Source of the DNA: Allochromatium vinosum DSM 180
GTDB lineage: Bacteria > Pseudomonadota > Gammaproteobacteria > Chromatiales > Chromatiaceae
NCBI RefSeq assembly: GCF_000025485.1
Contig: NC_013851.1
Location: 2,910,001 to 2,974,000 of the forward strand
DNA: 64,000 nucleotides
Reading direction: 5' to 3'
Positions within the stretch are counted from its first letter, which is position 1, and each line of letters begins with the position of its first letter. Under the pieces are notes generated by a model that saw only the letters and a program-made list of their open reading frames with translations, searched no databases and was not told the origin of the DNA. Of the stretch, positions 8,579-19,246 are shown piece by piece. A program made the position numbers and the translations under genes.

Positions 8579-9772
8579 TCAATCCTTGCTGCCCCGGACC
8601 CACTCCAGACCCCAGTGATGGGCCTGATCCATATCCAGATGGCCGCGATGATAATCAACCAGTTTGGTGATCTTGACTGCGCCGCCCTGGTTCTCCAGGA
8701 GCGCGATGGCGCACATGGGACGGTCGTTGCGGTGCGAGTCGAGCCGCACCTCGATCTCGGGCTGGCCAGGCGTCTTGAGCGTGATGAGCGCCTCGGCCTC
8801 GGCCCAGTTGGGCGCCCCCTCATAGATGAAGGCATAGACCAGGACGCGCTTGATCTCGTCCCAATGCTGACCGTTGATACGCAGATTTTCGCCACTGGAG
8901 CTGGACCCCGTGCGATCGTCGGCGTCCAGCGCGATATAGGGCGGGCCATAGTAGTTGCCGAAGGTGTTGCCCAGCGCCTGAACCGCACTCTTGTCGCCAT
9001 TGATCAGCTCGTAGAGACAGCCGACGTCGAGATCGGTTCGATTGGACCCCATGAGTCCGCTCAAAAACCCCTTCTTGGCCCCGGACAGCGAACGCCATTT
9101 GAGGTTGATGAGAATCTCCCCGTGGCTGGCGTTGGCCTGCTTCTGCAGCGACACCGAGTTGCCGCGCTTGTCCAGCGTGATCTTGCTCAGATTGACCGGT
9201 GACGGCTGAGGCTTGGGCGGTTCGGGCGGCGGCGGCGCCGGAGTCTCGGGCGCCACGGTGCCGCCGAAGTGCGCGACCAGGGCCGCCAGACCGCCGTTGA
9301 AACCCTGACCGAGGGCGCAGGTACGCCAGATACCGTCCTTGCGGTAGATCTCCAGCAGCATGAGCGCACGTTCCTCGGCGAAATCCGCGCCGCTGAACTC
9401 GAACCGTCCGACTTCGCTTGCACCGTCCATCAAGCGCACATGTCCGCGACCGATCCGCGACATGGTGCCCGCGCCATCGATCGCGGCCGTGAGGGTCAGA
9501 CGCTCGATGCCTGCCGGCAGTCGACCGAGATCGATCGCGAAGCCGGCCTTGTCACCCGAGGGCACCGACAGCGCCACCCCGCCACAGGGCGAGGTCGGCT
9601 GGTTGAAGAAGGTCATGTAGCGCTCATCGGCGAGCTGCCCCCGGGCATCGAGTCCGAAGCAGGCGAAGTCGATGATCAAACCAGGCGCATCGACCGACAC
9701 GCCCAATGTGAAACGCTGACCATTCGGCACCAGATCCGCGATCTTGGCGCGCTGTCCGCGCGAGAGATTCAT
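8579..9772 (-). CDS. terA: TerA-like protein: two TerD-type domains joined by a Pro-rich linker
   Basis: 397 residues. Residues 1-165 form a TerD-like beta-sandwich ([18 protein letters not shown]) in which the usual DLDAS calcium motif is replaced by FACFGLDA, so calcium binding by this half is doubtful. A Pro/Glu linker follows (about 168-192), then a second TerD-type domain (about 193-397) with [18 protein letters not shown] and [17 protein letters not shown]. Length and layout match TerA of tellurite clusters. Its ATG overlaps the stop of the upstream TerD gene by four bases, so translation is coupled. It probably forms scaffold complexes with TerD/TerB under the membrane. Confidence 0.82.
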
Positions 9773-10359
9773 CCGACGTTGACCCCGTGCTGTAACGCCA
9801 GAGCGCGCAAGCCGCCGGAATAGCCCTGCCCCACGGCGCGGAACTTCCAGTCGCCGCTATGGCGGTAGATCTCGCCGAAGATCATGGCCGTCTCGGTCGA
9901 ATAGTCCTCGGACAGATCGAAGCGCACGACCTCTTGGTTGTTGTCGCGATTGACGATGCGCACGAAGGCGTTGCTGACCTGTCCGAAGTTCTGACGCCGC
10001 GCGTCGGCATCATGGATCGTGACCACGATCACCAGACGCTGCACCTCGGCAGGCACCTTGGACAGCGTGACATGGACCGACTCATCATCGCCCTCGCCCG
10101 CGCCGGTGCGATTGTCGCCTGTGTGCTCGATGGCCCCCTCGGGCGACTTCGGCTGGTTGTAGAAGATGAAATAAGCGTCGCTCGGCACCTTGCCGTCGTC
10201 CTTGACCATGAACAGGCTGGCATCCAGGTCGAAGTCCTGTCCGTCGGTCGCGCGTGCGTCCCAACCCAGACCCACGAGCACGTTCTCCAGATTGGGCGCT
10301 TCCTTGCTCAGGTTGACGTTGCCGCCTTTGTTCAAGCTGATGGCCATGCTTACCTCCAT
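9769..10359 (-). CDS. terD: TerD-family calcium-binding stress protein
   Basis: 196 residues with the full TerD signature: [31 protein letters not shown], then [16 protein letters not shown], the two calcium-binding loops, and [17 protein letters not shown] near the end. TerD proteins are soluble double beta-sandwich calcium binders that work with TerC/TerB in resistance to tellurite, phage and membrane stress. It is coupled by a four-base overlap to the TerA-like gene downstream. It is very similar to the TerD at 14239-14817. Confidence 0.93.
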
Positions 10360-10446
10360 TCAGGGTAGACAGTAATCGCTGGCTGGAACGACACAACCAC
10401 GCCAGCAAGCGCAATGCTTGGCGAGTTTAAACGAGGTTCGATCGTT

Positions 10447-11622
10447 TCAAGAACCTTTCCGTGCTGTCGCGCGCGGCTGATAGGGCCGATGACGGGGTCC
10501 AAGGTTTTGCAGCAAATCGTCGAGTCCGGCGCGCGGCGTCTCGTGGCAGACGATGATGCGCACATAGTCGTCGGGATCGACATTGTAGAGATAGTTGAGG
10601 ATGCCCTCGCCGTAATTATCCGCGAAGACGAGCCTTCGCCCAACATCGGCGCCGACCAGGATCGGCGAGCGGCTGGTGGCCTGGACGGCGACCCTGAGCC
10701 CCAGCGCTTCCAGCCCCAGCCCAACCCGGAAGGCGAGATGCATGAACTCGCCGGTGCCCAGCACCAGTACCGGATCGCCGGACTCCAGACCCTCGGCCAA
10801 TTCCTCAAGGTCCATGCTCGGCACGGTGATCGGTCGGTCGATACCGAACCGGCCCAAGTCCTCGGCGAGATCATGGGGCATGAGCCGGTTGTCGCCGACG
10901 GCCGGTGGCGGCTCATCGGTGAACCAGGAGGCGGCCGGCTCGAAGGCGAACTCGCCATGCAGCGCGGCCACGCATTCGACCGGCAACCCCAGACGCTCGG
11001 AGAAACGTACCGCGCTGTCGGCACCGCCGAACTGGGTGATGGCGACGAAGTGGACGCGCTCGATGCCGGGGTTGAGGCGTCGATAGGATTCGACCAGATT
11101 GCAGAGCGTGTTGCCGGTGCTGATCTCGTCGTCGATCAGTACCAGCTCGCGCGCCGACTCGAAGCGACGGCGCTGCTCGGGCTGGATCGGCGCGTAGAGC
11201 AACTGGTCGGGCGCGTGACAGTGAGCCTCCTGGAAGTCGAGCGCCGCGCGTCCGTCGACACGATAGCGGGTCGAGTGGATGAACAGCGCTTCGGTCTCGG
11301 GCCGCTGTTCGAGCCGCGACTCGAACACCCCCTGTCCCAGTCCGGTCGCGGTCTCGGCCATGGCGACGAACAGGCAGGGGCCGGCGCCCAGGTCGAGCTG
11401 GCCGGCCAGATGGGCGTGGATCTCACGCATCCGTGTCGGTGTGACCGGCCAGTGCTTGCCGAGCACCTTGCTCAGGAACAGAAAACCGCGCTTGCGATTG
11501 TGGCGCGCGGCAAATCCGCACAGCTCGTCGAGCGCAAAGGCCGATTCACGCACCCGCACGCGCAATGTGCCCGTATCCAGCCTGACCGAACGCTCGGTCA
11601 CGTCCAACACATCCTTGGTCAC
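10447..11622 (-). CDS. Ter-cluster phosphoribosyltransferase (TRSP type)
   Basis: 391 residues. The N-terminal half contains a type I phosphoribosyltransferase with a classic PRPP loop, ELVLIDDEISTGNTLCNLV, and conserved CLFVAMAETATGLGQGVFE; the C-terminal part (VLGTGEFMHLAFRVGLGLE, ILVGADVGRRLVFADNYGEG) matches the TRSP domain found after these enzymes in Ter loci. It overlaps the upstream ATP-grasp gene by four bases. Together they are predicted to attach a ribosyl-phosphate moiety and an acid in building a nucleoside-like product; the product has not been shown for this organism. Confidence 0.83.
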   Translation of the reverse strand: MTKDVLDVTERSVRLDTGTLRVRVRESAFALDELCGFAARHNRKRGFLFLSKVLGKHWPVTPTRMREIHAHLAGQLDLGAGPCLFVAMAETATGLGQGVFESRLEQRPETEALFIHSTRYRVDGRAALDFQEAHCHAPDQLLYAPIQPEQRRRFESARELVLIDDEISTGNTLCNLVESYRRLNPGIERVHFVAITQFGGADSAVRFSERLGLPVECVAALHGEFAFEPAASWFTDEPPPAVGDNRLMPHDLAEDLGRFGIDRPITVPSMDLEELAEGLESGDPVLVLGTGEFMHLAFRVGLGLEALGLRVAVQATSRSPILVGADVGRRLVFADNYGEGILNYLYNVDPDDYVRIIVCHETPRAGLDDLLQNLGPRHRPYQPRATARKGS

Positions 11623-12659
11623 GCGGCGACCTCATGACGTTCGTACTGTGCAACCTCCAGGACTGTCATGTCCGCCGCCAGCCTTGGAGCCTCCTGGTAG
11701 TCCTGCTCGGTGAACCCCTGAATCAGACCACGGAGCGCCAGATAGGGCAGATTGAGCCCGGCCGCGCCCGTGTAGCCGATACCGCCGGCAAAACGCGGGT
11801 TGACCTCCAGCAGACGCGGGCCATGGCGGCCCTCGCGAAACTGGGCATTGAAGAGTCCGGTCAGGCCGAAGCGCTCGGTCAGTTCGGATACCGCCTGGGT
11901 CAGATCGGAGCGTGCAACGATCCGCTGACCATAGGCGCCGCCCGATGCCTTGCGGCGCTGGGTCAGGGCGATCAGGCGCCGGCCATCGCCGACGGCATCC
12001 AGGCTGTATTCATCGCCCGCGAGATATTCCATCAGCAGCCAGGTCTCAGCGGGCGGATGGCGCGCGAGCAGCTGGCGCAGACAGCCGAGCTGGATACTGT
12101 AGACGCCGTCACGCAACAGCCCCTCCAGGCCAGCGTGTCCCTCCTGGATGACACGAAAACCGGCACCGTTCACCCCCTTGGCCGGCTTGATGCACAGCAC
12201 GTCATGGGTGAAGCGCAGCCGCTCGTAGGCCGACTCGAACTCGGCCACCGTGCGAAAGGGAATGGTCTCGGGCGTGGGGAGATGGAACTGGCTCGCTTCG
12301 AGCGCAAAACGCGCTTTGTCGTGCAGACGCTCCAGCGACTCGGGCGCGGCCACCGACAGCAGCCGCACACCGATGGCGGAAAAGCGCGGGCGCTGCTCGG
12401 TCAGCAACCGCGCTTCCTTGCCCGGCCAGAGCGCATCGACATGCCGCTCGCGGCAGAAATCCAGACAGAAATCGACATAATCCGCACCGCTCAGCCCGGC
12501 CGGCTCCAGGGCCTGCTCGTGCGCCGGCACGAAGCCTGGAAAGCTCGGCTCGGGATGGGTGCAGACCAGCCGGAACTCACCCGCCGCGTCGCCCCGACGG
12601 ATGAGGTCGAGGACGGCGCGGACGTTCGAGAAGGTACGGTTGAACCAGACGCGGGTCAT
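11619..12659 (-). CDS. ATP-grasp ligase of the Ter cluster
   Basis: 346 residues, MTRVWFNRTFSNVRAVLDLI. The ATP-grasp features are visible: LCIKPAKGVNGAGFRVIQEG (ATP-binding lysine and glycine-rich loop), TWLLMEYLAGDEYSLDAVGD, and the Mg ligands in RLLEVNPRFAGGIGY. I chose the ATG at 12659 because earlier in-frame residues overlap the 3' end of the TerD gene at 12677 and look non-coding. It likely forms an amide or ester bond on the Ter-linked metabolite. It is coupled to the phosphoribosyltransferase gene by a four-base overlap. Confidence 0.85.
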   Translation of the reverse strand: MTRVWFNRTFSNVRAVLDLIRRGDAAGEFRLVCTHPEPSFPGFVPAHEQALEPAGLSGADYVDFCLDFCRERHVDALWPGKEARLLTEQRPRFSAIGVRLLSVAAPESLERLHDKARFALEASQFHLPTPETIPFRTVAEFESAYERLRFTHDVLCIKPAKGVNGAGFRVIQEGHAGLEGLLRDGVYSIQLGCLRQLLARHPPAETWLLMEYLAGDEYSLDAVGDGRRLIALTQRRKASGGAYGQRIVARSDLTQAVSELTERFGLTGLFNAQFREGRHGPRLLEVNPRFAGGIGYTGAAGLNLPYLALRGLIQGFTEQDYQEAPRLAADMTVLEVAQYERHEVAA

Positions 12660-12676
12660 GGGGTCCGGCGACGACC

Positions 12677-13273
12677 TCAGAGATGCGGCTTGATCTGCGG
12701 CATGAGCTGATCGAAGGTGCGCCCCTGCCCGACCTCGCCGATGGCGTGCATCTTCCACTCGTTGTTATGACGGTAGACCTTGGCCATGATCATGGCCGAG
12801 TGGCTACCCTGGCAGCTCAGATCGTAGCGGGCGATCTCGCTGTTGTCGGCGCCGTTGAGGATGCGGCAGTAGGCGTTGGCCACCTTCGAGAAGTCCTGGC
12901 CGGTGTAGTTGTTGACGGTGAACACCAGACTCTTGACGTTGGCCGGCACGGTCGCGAGGCTGACCTGAATCTGCTCGTCGTCACCTGCGCCCTCGCCGGT
13001 GCGATTGTCGCCGGTGTGATGGATGCTGCCGTCGCGGCTGGTGAGCTGGCGGAACCAGACCACGTCGACCAGTTCGCCCGCCTCGTCGAACAGCAGACAG
13101 GAGGCGTCGAGATCGATGCTTTCACCGCCACCGCCCCCGAACAGCCCGCCCAGCAAGCCGCCCTTGCCGGATTGGGCGGCATCCCAGCCCAGCCCCATGA
13201 TGACGCGGGTCAGACCGCCGCCGGCTTCTTTTTCGAGCGAGATCTTTTGGCCTTTCTGAAGACTGATGCCCAT
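12677..13273 (-). CDS. TerD-family protein with a Gly-rich insertion
   Basis: 198 residues, MGISLQKGQKISLEKEAGGG, with DLDASCLLFDEAG and DNRTGEGAGDDEQIQV calcium loops intact. Between GLGWDAAQ and the first loop there is an insertion (KGGLLGGLFGGGGGE) absent from the other copies in this island. That variant resembles the TerX-like subgroup, but I cannot separate subgroups by eye. The ATP-grasp gene follows after 17 bp. Its C-terminal half (CRILNGADNSEIARYDLSC, MHAIGEVGQGRTFDQLMPQI) also differs from the two closely matched TerD copies. Confidence 0.88.
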   Translation of the reverse strand: MGISLQKGQKISLEKEAGGGLTRVIMGLGWDAAQSGKGGLLGGLFGGGGGESIDLDASCLLFDEAGELVDVVWFRQLTSRDGSIHHTGDNRTGEGAGDDEQIQVSLATVPANVKSLVFTVNNYTGQDFSKVANAYCRILNGADNSEIARYDLSCQGSHSAMIMAKVYRHNNEWKMHAIGEVGQGRTFDQLMPQIKPHL

Positions 13274-13387
13274 GGTTGCGACTCCTCGTGATGAACCGCG
13301 TCTGGCGCGGCATGGATTACATGATGTGTGGTGCTTGGGGGAACGGCTGATCCGGGCGCGGCGCCGGATGGCGTCACGGCCGCGCGG

Positions 13388-14074
13388 TCATTGCCCTTGC
13401 TGGGGCTGGAAGATGGCCTTGTTGCGCGAGCAGATGACGACCTTGCCCTGACCGCGAAAGCGGATCACCAGACCTTCGCCCGATGTCACCGAGTTGACGA
13501 TCGAGCCGAAGAAACCGCCGCCGGTGCGCGGCATCCCGACCTCGTAGAGCAGATTCGACGACCAGGCCACGGCATGATTGTTGTCGATGACGATGTCGCG
13601 TCCCGGTGTGACCTCCAGACTGAAGATCGAGCCGAAACCCGACACGGCCAGCTTGCCGTGCCCGACGGCCTCCATGATGACGAAGCCGCCCGTACCGCCG
13701 AACAGTCCGCCGCCGACCGTGTTGAGCCGTGGATTGATTTCGACGCCCGATTCAGCCGCCAGAAAGCTGCTGTCGGAGAGCGTGTAAGGCGAATTGGGGG
13801 TGACGTCGAGCAGTTCGATCGCCCCTGGCAGGTTCGGCGAGAGCAGACAGTCGCCATCGCCGCCGACGGCCTCGATCTCTTGCTGGAAGAAGGATTCGTC
13901 ATTGGCCAGACGCCGCAGCAGCGCACGTCCGAATCCGCCGCGCATCTGCCCCTTCACTTGCAGCGGCTCTTCCATCATGACCATGGCGCCGGACTCACAA
14001 AAGATCCGTTCGCCCTTGCGCAGACTCACATGCAGAAACGGATCGATCTCTCCAGTGACCGTGAAGACAGGCAT
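13388..14074 (-). CDS. AIM24/TIGR00266-family protein
   Basis: 228 residues, MPVFTVTGEIDPFLHVSLRK, with GERIFCESGAMVMMEE and repeated beta-strand segments ending in VVICSRNKAIF. This matches the AIM24 (TIGR00266) family of trimeric beta-helix-like proteins, often encoded beside TerD genes in bacteria and related to a yeast mitochondrial inner-membrane protein. No catalytic residues are evident. It lies between two TerD genes, 114 and 164 bp away on the same strand. A structural or membrane-associated role in the Ter system is likely but unproven. Confidence 0.85.
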   Translation of the reverse strand: MPVFTVTGEIDPFLHVSLRKGERIFCESGAMVMMEEPLQVKGQMRGGFGRALLRRLANDESFFQQEIEAVGGDGDCLLSPNLPGAIELLDVTPNSPYTLSDSSFLAAESGVEINPRLNTVGGGLFGGTGGFVIMEAVGHGKLAVSGFGSIFSLEVTPGRDIVIDNNHAVAWSSNLLYEVGMPRTGGGFFGSIVNSVTSGEGLVIRFRGQGKVVICSRNKAIFQPQQGQ

Positions 14075-14238
14075 GGCAGTGACCTCGCGGCAGAGGAATG
14101 TGGGCGACCGGCCTCCAGGATCCGAGGACGCGTGAGGCGGGAACCGCCGCGATGACGCTGAATGCGGCTCCCATGCTCACGGCCCCCGCACGATCGTCAG
14201 AGGCCGGAAGCCAGCGGATCGAAAGCGGTCGCGCGCAA

Positions 14239-14817
14239 TCAGCCGATGTTGACGCCGTGATCCTTGGCCAGCGCGGCCAGACCACCGGCGAAGCCCTGGC
14301 CGACGGCCTTGAACTTCCACTCCTCACCGTTGCGATAGATCTCGCCAAAAATCATGGCCGTCTCGATCGAGTAGTCCTCGGAGAGGTCGAAGCGGGCCAG
14401 CTCGGTGTTGCTGTCCTTGTTGAGCACACGCATGAAGGCATTGCGCACCATGCCGAAATTCTGCTTGCGGCTCTCGGCCTCGTGGATGGTGACGGCGAAG
14501 ACGACACGCTTCACCCCGGCCTCGACGCCCGGCAGATTGATGGTCACGACTTCGTCGTCGCCCTCGCCCGCGCCCGTGGTGTTGTCGCCGGCATGAATCA
14601 CGGCCCCATCGGGCGAGGTCTTCTGGTTGTAGAAGACGAAGTGACCGTCCGAGAGCACCTTGCCGTCGTCACCGACCAGGAACACGCTGGCGTCCAGATC
14701 GAAGGCGGCGCCGTCGGTGGAACGCGCGTCCCAGCCCAGTCCGACCTGGACATTGGTCAGACCCGGATCGGTCTTGGTCAGGCTGACGTTACCGCCTTTT
14801 TGCAAGCTGATGGCCAT
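14239..14817 (-). CDS. terD: TerD-family calcium-binding stress protein (first gene of Ter run)
   Basis: 192 residues, [20 protein letters not shown], with [16 protein letters not shown] and [16 protein letters not shown] calcium loops. The ribosome site AGAGGAG lies six bases upstream of the ATG. As the most upstream Ter gene on the minus strand, its promoter should lie in 14818-14956, a region with a repeated GGGTCGTTAT (at about 14836 and 14852). It is the closest relative of the TerD at 9769-10359, suggesting duplication within the island. Confidence 0.93.
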
Positions 14818-14956
14818 TGGAGACTCCTCTTGTGGGTCGTTATGGAAACTGGGTCGTTATAAATTGATCCGGTCTAGTGTAGTCGAGTCGATCAGCGCGC
14901 GGTATAAGCTTACCGATTCTTCATCTTGCCAAAGTTATCGATCGTCTTATTTTTCG

Positions 14957-16690
14957 ATGAGTCCGCTTCTCGACATCCTTGGCCCCACTGCCCGTTGTTC
15001 CGCCATCAAGGGTGCGCTGGCACGGCTGGCGCGACAGCGCGGCGCCGCCTCCACGCCGCCCGCCGTCGTGAACGCCCTCCTGGATCTGGCCGGCCATACG
15101 CCCGATCGGCCCCTCTATCGTCGGCGGCTGCTCGAACCGGCCTTCGGCCGGGGCGAGGTGCTGCTGGCCGCGATCGAGCGTCTGCTCGCCTCCTACAGCC
15201 TCGCCGGCGGGCAGGCGAGCGAGGCTGTGCACGCGCTGCGCGACGCCATTCGCGCCGTCGAGCTGCATGTTGCCGGTCATGACGCCGCCGCGCGCGCCGT
15301 CGAGGCGCGCTTGATCGCAGCGGGACTCTCCGAGCGCGATGCACACCGACTACGCACGATCTGGCTGGTCCGCGACGATTTCCTGCTCTGCCATCTGAAT
15401 GGCGAGTTCGATTGCGTGGTCGGCCATCCACCCCAGACACGCCTGGAACGCCTGCCCAGTGTCCTGCGACGCGAGTACCGGCGGCGTTTCCATACCCTCT
15501 ATGATCGTGCTGATGTTTCGATCGCTTTCTTCGAGCGCGCCCTGGATCGGCTGGCGCCTGCTGGACGGCTCGGCTTCGTCGGCTCCAGCCGCTGGCTGAA
15601 GAACAAATCCGGTGGCCCATTGCGCACCAAGATCGCGCTGGAGTTTGCGCTGACGCACTTCATCGACCTTGAAGGACTGGAGGCCTTCACGTCGAACGGC
15701 ATCGCCGAATCCGCGCTCATGTTCATCGAGCGTCCGCCAGTCGAATTCCATGATGCCGTGTCTGGCTGCACCCGCCTCGTCAAACCGGGCGTCCTGAGCC
15801 TGCCCGAGCAACTGCCGTATCTGGTGACAGCCCTAGGTGCCGAATCACTGGACGAGGCACTGCTCGCTGAGGTTCGGCTCGGCGGCGCAAGACGCGATGC
15901 GCCCTGGCTGCTCGACGGCGGGGAGCATCTGGATCTGATCCATCGGTTCGAACACGCCTACCCAACCCTGAACGAGGCCGGCTGCCAGATTGGCCATGGC
16001 GTGGCGACTGGTTGTGACCGTGTCTTCATCGACGACTATCCGAGTCTGCCGGTCGAGTCCGCCTGCAAGCTGCCGCTGATCATGGCTCGGGATCTGGTCG
16101 ATGGCGAAATCCAGTGGCATGGCCAGGGGGTGATCAATCCGTTCCAGCCCGATGGCCGACTGGTCGATCTCGACGAACATCCGCGACTGGCGGACTATCT
16201 CGAACGGCATCGGGCAGCGATCGCGGGGCGGCATGTCGCCCGGCGTAATCCGACGGCCTGGTATCGCACCATCGACCGTATCGACCCGAGCCTGGTCGGT
16301 CAGCCGAAGCTGCTCATGGCCGATGTCAAGGGCGAAACGAAGGTCGTGTTCGATGAGGGGCATTTCTATCCGCATCACAGCCTGTGCTACGTCACCACGT
16401 CCGAGTGGGAGCCGCGTGCGCTCCAAGCGGTGCTGTGCTCGTCGGTGGCCGTGGCGATGATCGCGACCTATGGCACACGCTCGGCCGGCGGCTCCACGCG
16501 GCTCCAGGCGTCATCACTCAGACGCCTGCGGATTCCACGCTGGGCAGAGGTATCGGAGACGCAGCGCACGGAGTTGGCCGCCGTGGCGCTCGACGGCGAT
16601 CGGGATGCCATCGATGAGGCGGTGTTTCGGCTCTATGGTCTCGATGGGCGTGAGGCGGAATACATCCGCGCGATGGCGCGTTGGCACTGA
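14957..16690 (+). CDS. Eco57I/TaqI-like DNA adenine methyltransferase with degenerate motif IV
   Basis: 577 residues from the ATG at 14957 (MSPLLDILGPTARCSAIKGA; no clear ribosome site). The N-terminal half resembles N6-adenine methyltransferases of restriction-modification systems: a SAM-binding motif I variant (LLEPAFGRGEVLLAAIERL, near residue 57), then FDCVVGHPPQTRL at residues 152-164 where active enzymes have NPPY. Residues 200-260 (LDRLAPAGRLGFVGSSRWLK, GIAESALMFIE) fit the family, and the C-terminal part (GHGVATGCDRVFI, SAGGSTRLQASSLRRLRIP) fits a TaqI-type target-recognition domain. No separate nuclease gene is adjacent. The Asn-to-Gly-His change predicts weak or absent methylation. 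It is divergent from the Ter run and upstream of the cas1 remnant. Confidence 0.72.
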   Translation: MSPLLDILGPTARCSAIKGALARLARQRGAASTPPAVVNALLDLAGHTPDRPLYRRRLLEPAFGRGEVLLAAIERLLASYSLAGGQASEAVHALRDAIRAVELHVAGHDAAARAVEARLIAAGLSERDAHRLRTIWLVRDDFLLCHLNGEFDCVVGHPPQTRLERLPSVLRREYRRRFHTLYDRADVSIAFFERALDRLAPAGRLGFVGSSRWLKNKSGGPLRTKIALEFALTHFIDLEGLEAFTSNGIAESALMFIERPPVEFHDAVSGCTRLVKPGVLSLPEQLPYLVTALGAESLDEALLAEVRLGGARRDAPWLLDGGEHLDLIHRFEHAYPTLNEAGCQIGHGVATGCDRVFIDDYPSLPVESACKLPLIMARDLVDGEIQWHGQGVINPFQPDGRLVDLDEHPRLADYLERHRAAIAGRHVARRNPTAWYRTIDRIDPSLVGQPKLLMADVKGETKVVFDEGHFYPHHSLCYVTTSEWEPRALQAVLCSSVAVAMIATYGTRSAGGSTRLQASSLRRLRIPRWAEVSETQRTELAAVALDGDRDAIDEAVFRLYGLDGREAEYIRAMARWH

Positions 16691-17350
16691 GACGCGGGCG
16701 ATCACACTCAGCTGTGGATTTCATGGCGGCTTCCGATTTCGAGCAGCACGACATCCGTTCCATGGCCTTGAGCCGCCGCGTCAGCCGATGTGCCACAGCG
16801 CTTGATCTCTTGGGCTGGAGTGCTGTTCACGGAGGACGTTCGCATTGAACGCCGTACCGATTGCAGCGCCGTAGCCGGTAGGGGTCGGGATCAAGCAGAC
16901 ACGACGGGACCATGATGACGTTCATGCCAAAGGAGAATCATCAGTGGACAGTTTCACGCCCTCGGATCTCAAGACGATTCTGCATTCCAAGCGAGCCAAT
17001 CTGTACTACCTCGAGCATTGCCGCGTCCTGGTCAACGGCGGACGTGTCGAGTACGTGACGGATGCGGGCAAGCAGTCGCTGTATTGGAACATTCCCATCG
17101 CCAACACCACCTCCCTGCTGCTGGGAACGGGCACCTCGATCACCCAGGCGGCGATGCGCGAGCTGGCCAAGGCCGGGGTGCTGGTCGGATTCTGCGGCGG
17201 TGGCGGCACACCGCTGTTCGCAGCGACCGAGCGTGATACCGACATCCTCTGGTTTTCCCCGCAAAGTGAATATCGTCCCACCGAGTATCTTCAGTCCTGG
17301 GTGCGATTCTGGTTCGACGACGGACATCGTTTGACCCAGAGCGCGACAAG

Positions 17351-17370
17351 CCCCGCCCTTCAGGGCGGGG
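17351..17370 (+). repeat. Left-end subterminal hairpin of the IS200/IS605 element
   Basis: CCCCGCCC (17351-17358) pairs perfectly with GGGCGGGG (17363-17370) around a TTCA loop, 15 bp inside the inferred left boundary. This is the type of folded end recognised by Y1 transposases. Confidence 0.8.
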
Positions 17371-17404
17371 AAGGATAGCGCGGACGGCGTAGCCGTCCTG
17401 GGGT

Positions 17405-17821
17405 TCAGTGCGGAGTGCGCTGTTGCTCGATGTACTGGCGCACGATGGAAATGGGGGCGCCGCCACAGGATGAAGCGAAGTAGGACGGCGACCACAACGC
17501 GCGCCCCCAGAGTTTCCGGCGCAGGCTCGGGTAATTTTTGGCGCGAATGAGTCGGCTGGAGACGCCTTTGAGACTGTTCACGAGGCTGGAGACGGCCGCC
17601 TTCGGCGGATATTCCACCAACAGGTGAACATGATCGTCCTCACCGTCCATCTCGATCAGTTGCGCCTCAAAATCGATACAGACCTTGGTGAAGATGTGGC
17701 GCAGGTCCTCAAGGATGTCCTTGGTAAAGACGCCGCGCCGATACTTGGTCACGAAGACCAAGTGAACGTGCATCAGGAAGACACACTGCCTTCCGCGTCG
17801 AAGATCGTTGTCGCTGCTCAT
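17405..17821 (-). CDS. tnpA: IS200/IS605 Y1 transposase TnpA
   Basis: 138 residues, MSSDNDLRRGRQCVFLMHVH, from the ATG at 17821. The HUH metal-binding motif is His64-Val-His66 (DDHVHLLVEYPP), and the catalytic Tyr is Tyr130 in SIVRQYIEQQ. Length is normal for the family (about 130-155). It cleaves and joins single-stranded DNA ends folded as hairpins, moving the element during replication without target duplication. All catalytic residues are present, so it is probably functional. Confidence 0.93.
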   Translation of the reverse strand: MSSDNDLRRGRQCVFLMHVHLVFVTKYRRGVFTKDILEDLRHIFTKVCIDFEAQLIEMDGEDDHVHLLVEYPPKAAVSSLVNSLKGVSSRLIRAKNYPSLRRKLWGRALWSPSYFASSCGGAPISIVRQYIEQQRTPH

Positions 17822-17842
17822 AGACCAAACTACACTGCGTGC

Positions 17843-19063
17843 ATGCAGCGCCACCAAGCCTTCAAGTACGCCCTTCGACCGACCGGTCAACAGGAACGGC
17901 AGATGCGCCGCGTCGCCGGATCGTGCCGATTCGTCTACAACCAAGCGCTGGCGTTGCAGAAGGCGCGCCACGAACACGGCGACAAGAAGCTCGGGTATGC
18001 CGAGCTGTGCAAACGGCTGACCGCGTGGCGAAACGGTGCACAGACGCCGTGGTTGGCCGAGGCGCCGGTTCACCCGCTGCAACAGACGCTCAAGGACTTG
18101 GAGCGGGCCTATACCAACTTCTTCGCCCAGCGGGCGGCGTTTCCTCGCTTCAAGAAGAAAGGGCAAGGCGACAGTTTCCGCTACCCCGACCCCAAGCAGA
18201 TCAAACTCGATCAGGCCAACCGCCGGATCTTTCTGCCCAAGCTCGGCTGGCTGCGCTACCGCCACAGCCGGGACGTGCTCGGTGCGGTGAAGAACGTCAC
18301 CGTGAGCCGGTCGGGTGGCCAGTGGTTCGTGTCGATTCAGACGGAGCGCGCGGTCGATCCGCCCATCCCGAACGGCGGCGCCGTCGGTCTCGACCTGGGT
18401 ATCGTCCGCTTCGCCACGCTCTCCGACGGCACCTATTACGCACCGCTCAACAGCTTCAAGCGCCATGAAACGGCCTTGCGCCAGGCGCAGCAGGCGCTGA
18501 GCCGCAAGGTGAAGTTCAGCCGCAATTGGAAGAAGGCCAAAGCCCGCGTCCAGAAGATTCATTCCCGGATTGGTAATGCCCGCCGCGACTACCTGCACAA
18601 GACCTCGACCACGATCAGCCAAAACCACGCGATGGTGTGTATCGAGGACTTGCCGGTACGGAACATGTCCAAGTCGGCGGCCGGCACCACCGAGCAGCCG
18701 GGCAAGAACGTTCGGGCCAAGTCTGGCCTGAACAAATCCATCCTCGATCAAGGCTGGTTCGAGTTCCGCCGCCAGTTGGACTACAAGCTGGCGTGGAAGG
18801 GCGGCTGGCTCATCGCCGTGCCGCCGCGCAACACCAGCCGCACCTGTCCGTGTTGTGGCCATGTGTCGGCCGACAACCGCCGGACGCAAGCGCGGTTCGC
18901 CTGTGTGGAATGCGGTTTCGAGGAACACGCCGATCTCGTCGGCGCGATCAACGTTTTAAGGGCGGGACACGCCCGGTTCGCCTGTGAAGTGAGCGGTGCT
19001 GTCAGGCCGCCAGCAGCAGGAACCCACCGAAGCGACTCCGGCACGGCTCAATGCCGCGTTTGA
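17843..19063 (+). CDS. tnpB: TnpB RNA-guided nuclease of IS200/IS605
   Basis: 406 residues from the ATG at 17843 (MQRHQAFKYALRPTGQQERQ). The three RuvC acidic residues are visible: Asp184 in VGLDLGIV, Glu268 in VCIEDLPV and Asp364 in EHADLVGAIN. A zinc finger uses Cys335/Cys338 (CPCCGH) and Cys354/Cys357 (CVECG). TnpB proteins cleave double-stranded DNA guided by an RNA from the element's right end, next to a target-adjacent motif equal to the insertion motif (here TTGAC). All key residues are intact. It is divergent from tnpA; the last residues run into the right-end structure. Confidence 0.93.
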   Translation: MQRHQAFKYALRPTGQQERQMRRVAGSCRFVYNQALALQKARHEHGDKKLGYAELCKRLTAWRNGAQTPWLAEAPVHPLQQTLKDLERAYTNFFAQRAAFPRFKKKGQGDSFRYPDPKQIKLDQANRRIFLPKLGWLRYRHSRDVLGAVKNVTVSRSGGQWFVSIQTERAVDPPIPNGGAVGLDLGIVRFATLSDGTYYAPLNSFKRHETALRQAQQALSRKVKFSRNWKKAKARVQKIHSRIGNARRDYLHKTSTTISQNHAMVCIEDLPVRNMSKSAAGTTEQPGKNVRAKSGLNKSILDQGWFEFRRQLDYKLAWKGGWLIAVPPRNTSRTCPCCGHVSADNRRTQARFACVECGFEEHADLVGAINVLRAGHARFACEVSGAVRPPAAGTHRSDSGTAQCRV

Positions 19064-19122
19064 GCGCCGTAGGAATCCCCCGCCTTCAGGCGGGGGAGGA
19101 TGTCAAGGCTGCGAAAACGATC
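18900..19122 (+). ncRNA. Putative omega (guide) RNA of TnpB
   Basis: In IS605-type elements the guide RNA scaffold derives from the 3' part of tnpB through the right end, and the guide is the flanking DNA just past it. Here the scaffold would end at 19106 (hairpin 19077-19096, then GAGGATGTCAA) and the guide would begin at 19107 with GGCTGCGAAAACGATC, which is cas1 sequence. The 5' boundary is a guess. Not directly demonstrable from sequence alone. Confidence 0.35.
19077..19096 (+). repeat. Right-end hairpin of the IS200/IS605 element
   Basis: CCCCCGCC (19077-19084) pairs with GGCGGGGG (19089-19096) around TTCA, ten bases before the TCAA that ends the element. It uses the same loop as the left-end hairpin. 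Confidence 0.82.
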
Positions 19123-19158
19123 CAGCGCCTGCGGCTCGCTTGGATCCGTGACCACTGG

Positions 19159-19246
19159 GCTTACTGCCGAGTAGGCAGCTCAGAAAATCAATTGCTGCAA
19201 ATCGTCAGCGTTCCCATGATTCACTGCCGAGTAGGCAGCTCAAAAA
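19159..19246 (+). CRISPR. Relic type I-F CRISPR array: two repeats, one spacer
   Basis: Two 28-bp repeats (19159-19186 and 19219-19246) share the core ACTGCCGAGTAGGCAGCT, the type I-F palindromic repeat, and flank one 32-nt spacer (19187-19218), the standard I-F spacer length. The first four bases of repeat 1 read GCTT instead of GTTC and are better explained as cas1 sequence at a deletion joint. Repeat 2 ends CAAAAA rather than CAGAAA and begins ATTC, as expected for a degenerate terminal repeat. Orientation matches cas1. No leader or Cas effector genes remain, so the array is probably silent. Confidence 0.9.

Follow-up and report, generated by a model that had tools for sequence, protein, structure and literature searches.

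The insertion sequence IS608 of Helicobacter pylori encodes the Y1 transposase TnpA together with TnpB, is inserted 3′ of a short motif that is retained in its left flank, and uses TTAC and TCAA as its left and right cleavage motifs (C_L and C_R), with AAAG and GAAT as the corresponding guides (G_L and G_R; PMC5934647). The guide of TnpB comes from the right flank of the element, and the TnpB of ISDra2 from Deinococcus radiodurans, whose TAM is TTGAT, uses only the proximal 12 nt of its guide (PMC10278001). Excision and insertion by TnpA, cutting of the resealed site by TnpB and copying back of the element have been published in outline (PMC11870625, PMC10278001), and a preprint reports gene drive by IS200/IS605 TnpB on plasmids, in which the guide records the insertion site and element-free copies are cut (PMC11870625). 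IS insertion into cas genes has also been reported to inactivate CRISPR–Cas (PMC10359306), in a paper whose main text, by a term search, contains no mention of IS200, IS605, TnpB or type I-F. No title describing a TnpB guided at cas1 was found in the literature by a search with subscription papers mostly outside its scope, which is weak evidence of absence.

Here we describe an element of this kind in the window, a 64,000-nucleotide stretch of Allochromatium vinosum DSM 180 (NC_013851.1, positions 2,910,001 to 2,974,000), where it lies within what is left of a type I-F cas1 gene. Like IS608, it combines a Y1 TnpA with TnpB, has TCAA as right cleavage motif, GAAT as right guide and a left guide and motif in the corresponding places, and was inserted 3′ of a short motif that its left flank retains; it differs in having TGAC (TTGAC preferred) with CAAG rather than TTAC with AAAG, a pair that a related subgroup of elements within the Chromatiaceae does have. 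Its TnpB resembles that of ISDra2 in the positions of the RuvC D/E/D residues, a 5-nt TTGA-type motif and a right-flank guide, although the motif predicted for it is TTGAC instead of TTGAT. With the reported drive it shares the principle of a guide that would record the insertion site and direct the cutting of element-free copies, but that drive operates on multicopy plasmids, whereas the locus in the window is chromosomal and has no known intact target. As in the reported inactivation of CRISPR–Cas, an IS lies inside a cas gene; there the insertion causes the loss, whereas here it may have come before or after the loss.

Our preferred reading, which we consider probable, is that an ordinary self-retaining IS resides in a decaying CRISPR locus, and that its TnpB and flank-derived guide act on the resealed insertion site.

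Results

A complete-looking IS605-type element

The element that separates the two parts of cas1 (Table 1) is flanked on the left by TTGAC and terminates in TCAA at 19106. It has subterminal hairpins, a TCAA right cleavage motif with the guide GAAT and a left motif retained in the flank, all of which are features of the IS605 type; because the cas1 flanks join in frame, there is no target duplication. The HVH motif is present in the translation of TnpA. By its sequence, the element can be classed as a complete-looking, ordinary IS200/IS605 (IS605-type) transposon.

Table 1. Features of the element and its surroundings, in window coordinates.
Feature	Position	Strand	Basis
cas1f 5′ part, ~130 codons, ending in TTGAC	16944-17335	+	TIGR03637 positions 1-120 of 307, E 8.4e-69
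TTGAC, left cleavage/insertion motif and predicted TAM	17331-17335	+	flank reading; TGAC in 12 left ends including the window
IS200/IS605 element (TnpA and TnpB), ends IS608-like	17336-19106	+	end and flank comparison
Left-end hairpin (17351-17370) with 5′ foot CAAG (17347-17350)	17347-17370	+	sequence reading, IS608 scheme
TnpA, Y1 (HUH) transposase, 138 aa	17405-17821	-	Pfam Y1_Tnp 4e-44; NCBIfam transpos_IS200 4.2e-43
TnpB, 406 aa, RuvC D184/E268/D364, zinc ribbon C335/C338/C354/C357	17843-19063	+	NCBIfam guided_TnpB 4.3e-107
Presumed reRNA/omegaRNA scaffold, overlapping the tnpB end	18960-19106	+	fold z, conservation, covarying stem
GAAT within the scaffold	19073-19076	+	
3′ stem of the scaffold, 9 nt before the guide	19076-19097	+	
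Predicted guide, 16-20 nt, cas1 sequence	19107-19126	+	flank-derived guide rule
All cas1 remaining 3′ of the element, ~52 bp	19107-19158	+	
Type I-F CRISPR array remnant, two 28-bp repeats and one ~32-nt spacer	19159-19246	+	repeat matches; limits read from sequence

Comparison of left ends defines the insertion motif. Among 29 extracted rows, including that of the window, the motif is TGAC in 12, TTAC in 13 and TTGC in two, the remaining two being unusable as placed: one (L106) carries an internal deletion, yet shows TTGAC slightly further along, and the other (L115) looks like a right-end hairpin picked up by chance. Within the TGAC group (n = 12, with the window), TTGAC is found eight times, CTGAC twice and ATGAC and GTGAC once each, so that the motif of these aligned flanks is best given as (T)TGAC, with T preferred before TGAC. 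The foot of the left hairpin, compared by eye, tracks the motif: its first position is C in all 12 TGAC rows (CAAG in 10, CAAA in one, CGAG in one), and it reads AAAG in 15/15 rows with TTAC or TTGC. A change from T to G in the motif is thus matched by a change from A to C in the foot, as in a base pair, and the CAAG at 17347-17350 is likely to act as the left guide for TGAC. At the other end, TCAA terminates 31/31 retained right ends, a count favoured by selection because matches falling short of the last 3 bases of the query had been discarded.

Elsewhere in the genome, a second copy (L012; C1:1317060-1318411) consists of TnpB without TnpA and has the same TTGAC on the left and TCAA on the right. 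Its TnpB is 94% identical to that of the window and both of its ends are kept, so the TnpA of the window could move it in trans; the two tnpB genes are 72-85% identical over the first 200 bp and 92-100% beyond, which gives the pair a mosaic look. The genome also holds scattered short copies resembling the left-end hairpin (CCGCGAGAAACCCCGTC...; L014, L015, L016 and L018), one of which (L014) differs upstream of the hairpin; these may be small relics or the ends of a further IS200/IS605 group.

The interrupted cas1 and the state of the type I-F locus

When the flanks are joined without the element, they encode an in-frame type I-F Cas1, and homology crosses the junction in 21 loci: in 19 relatives it reaches residues 147-156 of the joined query, which ends at 160, at 76-89% identity, and two more distant relatives likewise cross the junction. 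Judged by this homology, the reconstructed empty site holds for the ancestor of the A. vinosum DSM 180 strain. The initial annotation was thus right that the element interrupts cas1; it overlooked that the 3′ part of the gene is missing as well, except for the short tail listed in Table 1, which a CRISPR repeat follows directly.

The I-F repeat has only two matches genome-wide (counting those that differ at 3 or fewer of 23 bases), and a single I-F spacer of ~32 nt survives (19187-19218). Neither cas3f nor csy3 was found in the genome, by genome-wide searches that were positive in 4/14 and 1/14 control genomes, respectively. In an intact relative (L135) the order is cas1f, cas3f, csy1, csy2, csy3, csy4 and array, and a stretch of some 8.5 kb, by its estimated length in L135, is missing from the A. 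vinosum locus. Of what makes up a functional locus (cas1, cas3f, csy1-4 and an array), the main parts are, from the sequence, gone, and cas1 is kept only over profile positions 1-121 of 307. A type I-E set of cas1, cas2 and cas6 lies elsewhere in the genome; with cas3f and csy3 absent and the I-E cas1-cas2 pair kept, the strain no longer has a functioning I-F system that could be lost, and adaptation may persist through I-E. The proposal that the element brings about a loss of CRISPR adaptation is not supported by this state of the genome.

Directly upstream of the cas1 remnant lies a large gene for an Eco57I-type methylase (14660-16690), and the stretch 9769-14817 holds three TerD-domain genes with AIM24-like, ATP-grasp and PRTase_2/TRSP genes, together a ter-type operon with a biosynthetic module.

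In a draft genome of the same genus (G140; L118, G140:C150), the 5′ part of cas1 has a one-base gap and is 93.0% identical over 301 bp, and cas3f sequence follows within about 120 bp, its best-matching stretch beginning at profile position 372; the genome being a draft, an assembly error at this break is possible. No element was seen in the sequence at this break, the only matches to its left end in G140 being short and on other contigs. Since cas1 is broken otherwise in this relative, its loss in the genus appears possible without the element. The region upstream of cas1 (window 14221-16644) is 81.6% identical in G140 over 2,444 bp, against 93% for cas1, a sharp step in divergence.

The cas1 gene may even have been dead when the element arrived, through deletion of the I-F operon between cas1 and the array, in which case the insertion would have had no effect on CRISPR function. 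This is compatible with the preferred reading and differs from it in the order of events. The abutment of the ~52-bp cas1 tail on the CRISPR repeat, where L135 has an intact operon, points this way, as does the decayed cas1f of G140 with no element seen at its break; set against them, the 5′ part of the A. vinosum gene is open and, by its identity to that of G140, does not point to long decay, and a single genome is compatible with either order of insertion and deletion. In A. vinosum, then, the deletion may have preceded the insertion, and we regard a dead target gene as a serious prospect that falls somewhat short of even.

TnpB cuts at a distance of 15-21 bp. That it made the deletion itself was considered and rejected, as the deletion starts ~52 bp from the element, past this distance, and the site, with the element present, is not empty.

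TnpB and the presumed right-end RNA

Residues 2-394 of TnpB align with ISDra2 TnpB (8bf8; E 1.1e-56). Counted along this alignment, D184, E268 and D364 stand opposite residues 191, 278 and 361 of 8bf8, which we take to be the catalytic triad of ISDra2, so that all catalytic residues are present, as had been noted from the sequence at the outset. Against 19 related copies, dN/dS is 0.137-0.266, indicating purifying selection, and the aligned part is free of stops in 18 of these 19; the set comprises the loci, out of 30 searched, with one TnpB match each that was 250 aa or longer, shorter matches having been dropped, which favours intact copies.

The 147 nt preceding the guide fold with a z of -2.6, equalled by one in 200 shuffles. 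They are more alike than the remaining tnpB in five picked copies, of which L086 and L105 come from one genome and are near-identical there, and between the element in the window and the second copy of the same genome they are 99-100% identical, compared with 92.8% for the rest of tnpB. In an alignment of 29 rows (the window plus 28 right ends, three of the 31, L094, L102 and L100, having been dropped), 94.7% of the cells of the terminal 3′ stem are paired, against 52-68% when the stem is slid. Changes on both sides occur in three of its seven pairs, a number matched by 400/500 shuffles and so not above chance; no shuffle (0/500) equalled the stem in paired cells, changed cells or covariation score. 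Typical TnpBs have a conserved stem within 10 nt of the guide (PMC10278001), which the 9-nt spacing seen here fits. An Rfam search of the whole window returned no family at the gathering score.

In one published TAM screen, 27/59 TnpB orthologues were active (PMC10278001). The 32/59 that showed no TAM activity in that screen mean that the TnpB of the window may be inactive as well, a passenger without double-stranded DNA cleavage whose guide would be a positional accident of no consequence. Its intact triad, the purifying selection on it and a right-end scaffold conserved above the gene body in the five picked copies (two from one genome) speak against this, and we think such inertness unlikely.

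The predicted guide and the search for a matching target

By the published rule, the guide would be set by the right flank, which from 19107 onward is cas1 sequence, as the initial annotation had it: the 16 bases 3′ of the element are GGCTGCGAAAACGATC, and the bases beyond 19106 read GGCTGCGAAAACGATCCAGC. The TAM of TnpB is inferred from the insertion motif as TTGAC, and the resealed site would accordingly consist of TTGAC followed by the guide. Equating target motif with insertion motif agrees with the anatomy and with TnpB biology, once refined to TGAC with a preferred T (TTGAC in 8/12). That an uninterrupted cas1 reads TTGAC plus guide is borne out by the joined flanks of A. vinosum itself, and fails in every relative compared.

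The family comparison comprised 23 cas1f loci, of which 21 cover the site, L046 (short of the site) and L047 (no match) having been dropped; among the 21 genes, L042 is cut off by the end of its contig and L045 contains a stop, and a second cas1f of G033 (C15) was left out. TTGAC stands at the site in 0/21. One of these genes has CTGAC, but differs in 5 of the first 12 guide bases, and the best guide matches, with 3 mismatches in 20, differ in 3 or 4 of the 5 motif bases. A wider set was formed from the best 80 of at least 572 cas1f relatives in genome contigs and 10 from viral contigs; 89 of these 90 cover the site, L223 ending before it, and it overlaps with the family set (L139 with G033, L143 with G031). 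TGAC stands at the site in 0/89, and the 16 guide bases differ at 3 to 12 positions (n = 89).

Searches for the site irrespective of gene gave the same picture. The exact motif with 16 guide bases was absent from GTDB and IMG/VR contigs, in collections that hold one genome per species, with A. vinosum represented by at most one strain, and from which the records closest to its own genome may be excluded. With up to three mismatches, motif plus 16 bases gave 23 matches in 21 of 194 family genomes, compared with 10 for a backward-pattern control; none of the 23 was exact, the best (G003, motif TTGAG) having two mismatches. Two of them lie in the A. vinosum genome, at the right junction of the element and at C1:554479-554495; the latter, the nearest TTGAC site of the genome, differs in 2 of the first 12 and 3 of the 16 guide bases, so that self-cutting seems unlikely. 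Because ISDra2 TnpB uses the proximal 12 nt, the motif with 12 guide bases was also searched: the exact form was absent from the own genome and the genus, and up to two mismatches gave 10 matches in five of the eight genus genomes, none exact, compared with 9 for the control. For a Sulfolobus TnpB, single mismatches are tolerated when the TAM is cognate but not when it is weak (PMC11043419), a rule under which the cas1 genes of the relatives would be safe. From these comparisons the target site looks private to the A. vinosum lineage.

The initial annotation had made the guide a population force: resident TnpB could cut empty cas1 in other cells or on sister chromosomes, repair could spread the insertion, and loss of CRISPR adaptation may be driven through the population. 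Since none of the compared cas1f genes has motif and guide, with no TTGAC in either set (0/21 and 0/89) and never fewer than three guide mismatches in 16, this claim has no target to act on among them. A chromosomal locus, moreover, normally meets only its own sister copies. In its favour, the reconstituted site does read TTGAC plus guide, neither the left homology arm nor any of the guide has been lost, and TnpB drive has been reported for multicopy plasmids (PMC11870625). A drive requires both intact alleles that bear the site and the meeting of alleles, of which the first was not found here and the second has been shown for multicopy plasmids (PMC11870625). Given also the absence of the exact site from GTDB and IMG/VR contigs, the loss of cas3f and csy3 with I-E cas1-cas2 remaining, and the differently broken cas1 of the nearest relative, we judge it very improbable.

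Still more remote is a variant in which repair of a cut intact cas1 from the A. vinosum allele would copy the element along with the deletion of the cas1 3′ part, cas3f and the csy genes, the deletion being co-copied because the guide is whole and the CRISPR repeat stretch and downstream homology remain on the right; if true, this would be, within cells holding both alleles, a drive erasing an entire type I-F immune locus.

Discussion

The preferred reading, a self-retaining IS in a decaying CRISPR locus, can be set out as a series of steps modelled on the biology of the family. TnpA would have inserted the element 3′ of TTGAC in the I-F cas1, whether that gene was still whole or had already been broken. 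A transcript running through tnpB and the right end would then carry a scaffold that stops at 19106, with the following 16-20 nt of cas1 as guide. Excision by TnpA would restore TTGAC plus guide, the presumed TAM and target of TnpB, and a cut there, repaired from a sister copy that holds the element, would keep the element at its site. The effect would be local and self-preserving; with a site that looks confined to the lineage and an I-F locus that has already been lost, the element would not serve as a weapon against cas1 in general.

Both TnpB drive and the inactivation of cas genes by IS insertion have been reported before. The lesson of the window is that, before drive is claimed, an intact allele with motif and guide has to be looked for; none was found here. 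Among the Chromatiaceae copies, the paired change between TGAC/CAAG and TTAC/AAAG (window 17331-17370, L086-L111) is a natural one that fits the IS608 recognition model, and the A. vinosum locus offers a clean natural example of a TnpB with a CRISPR gene as its predicted guide.
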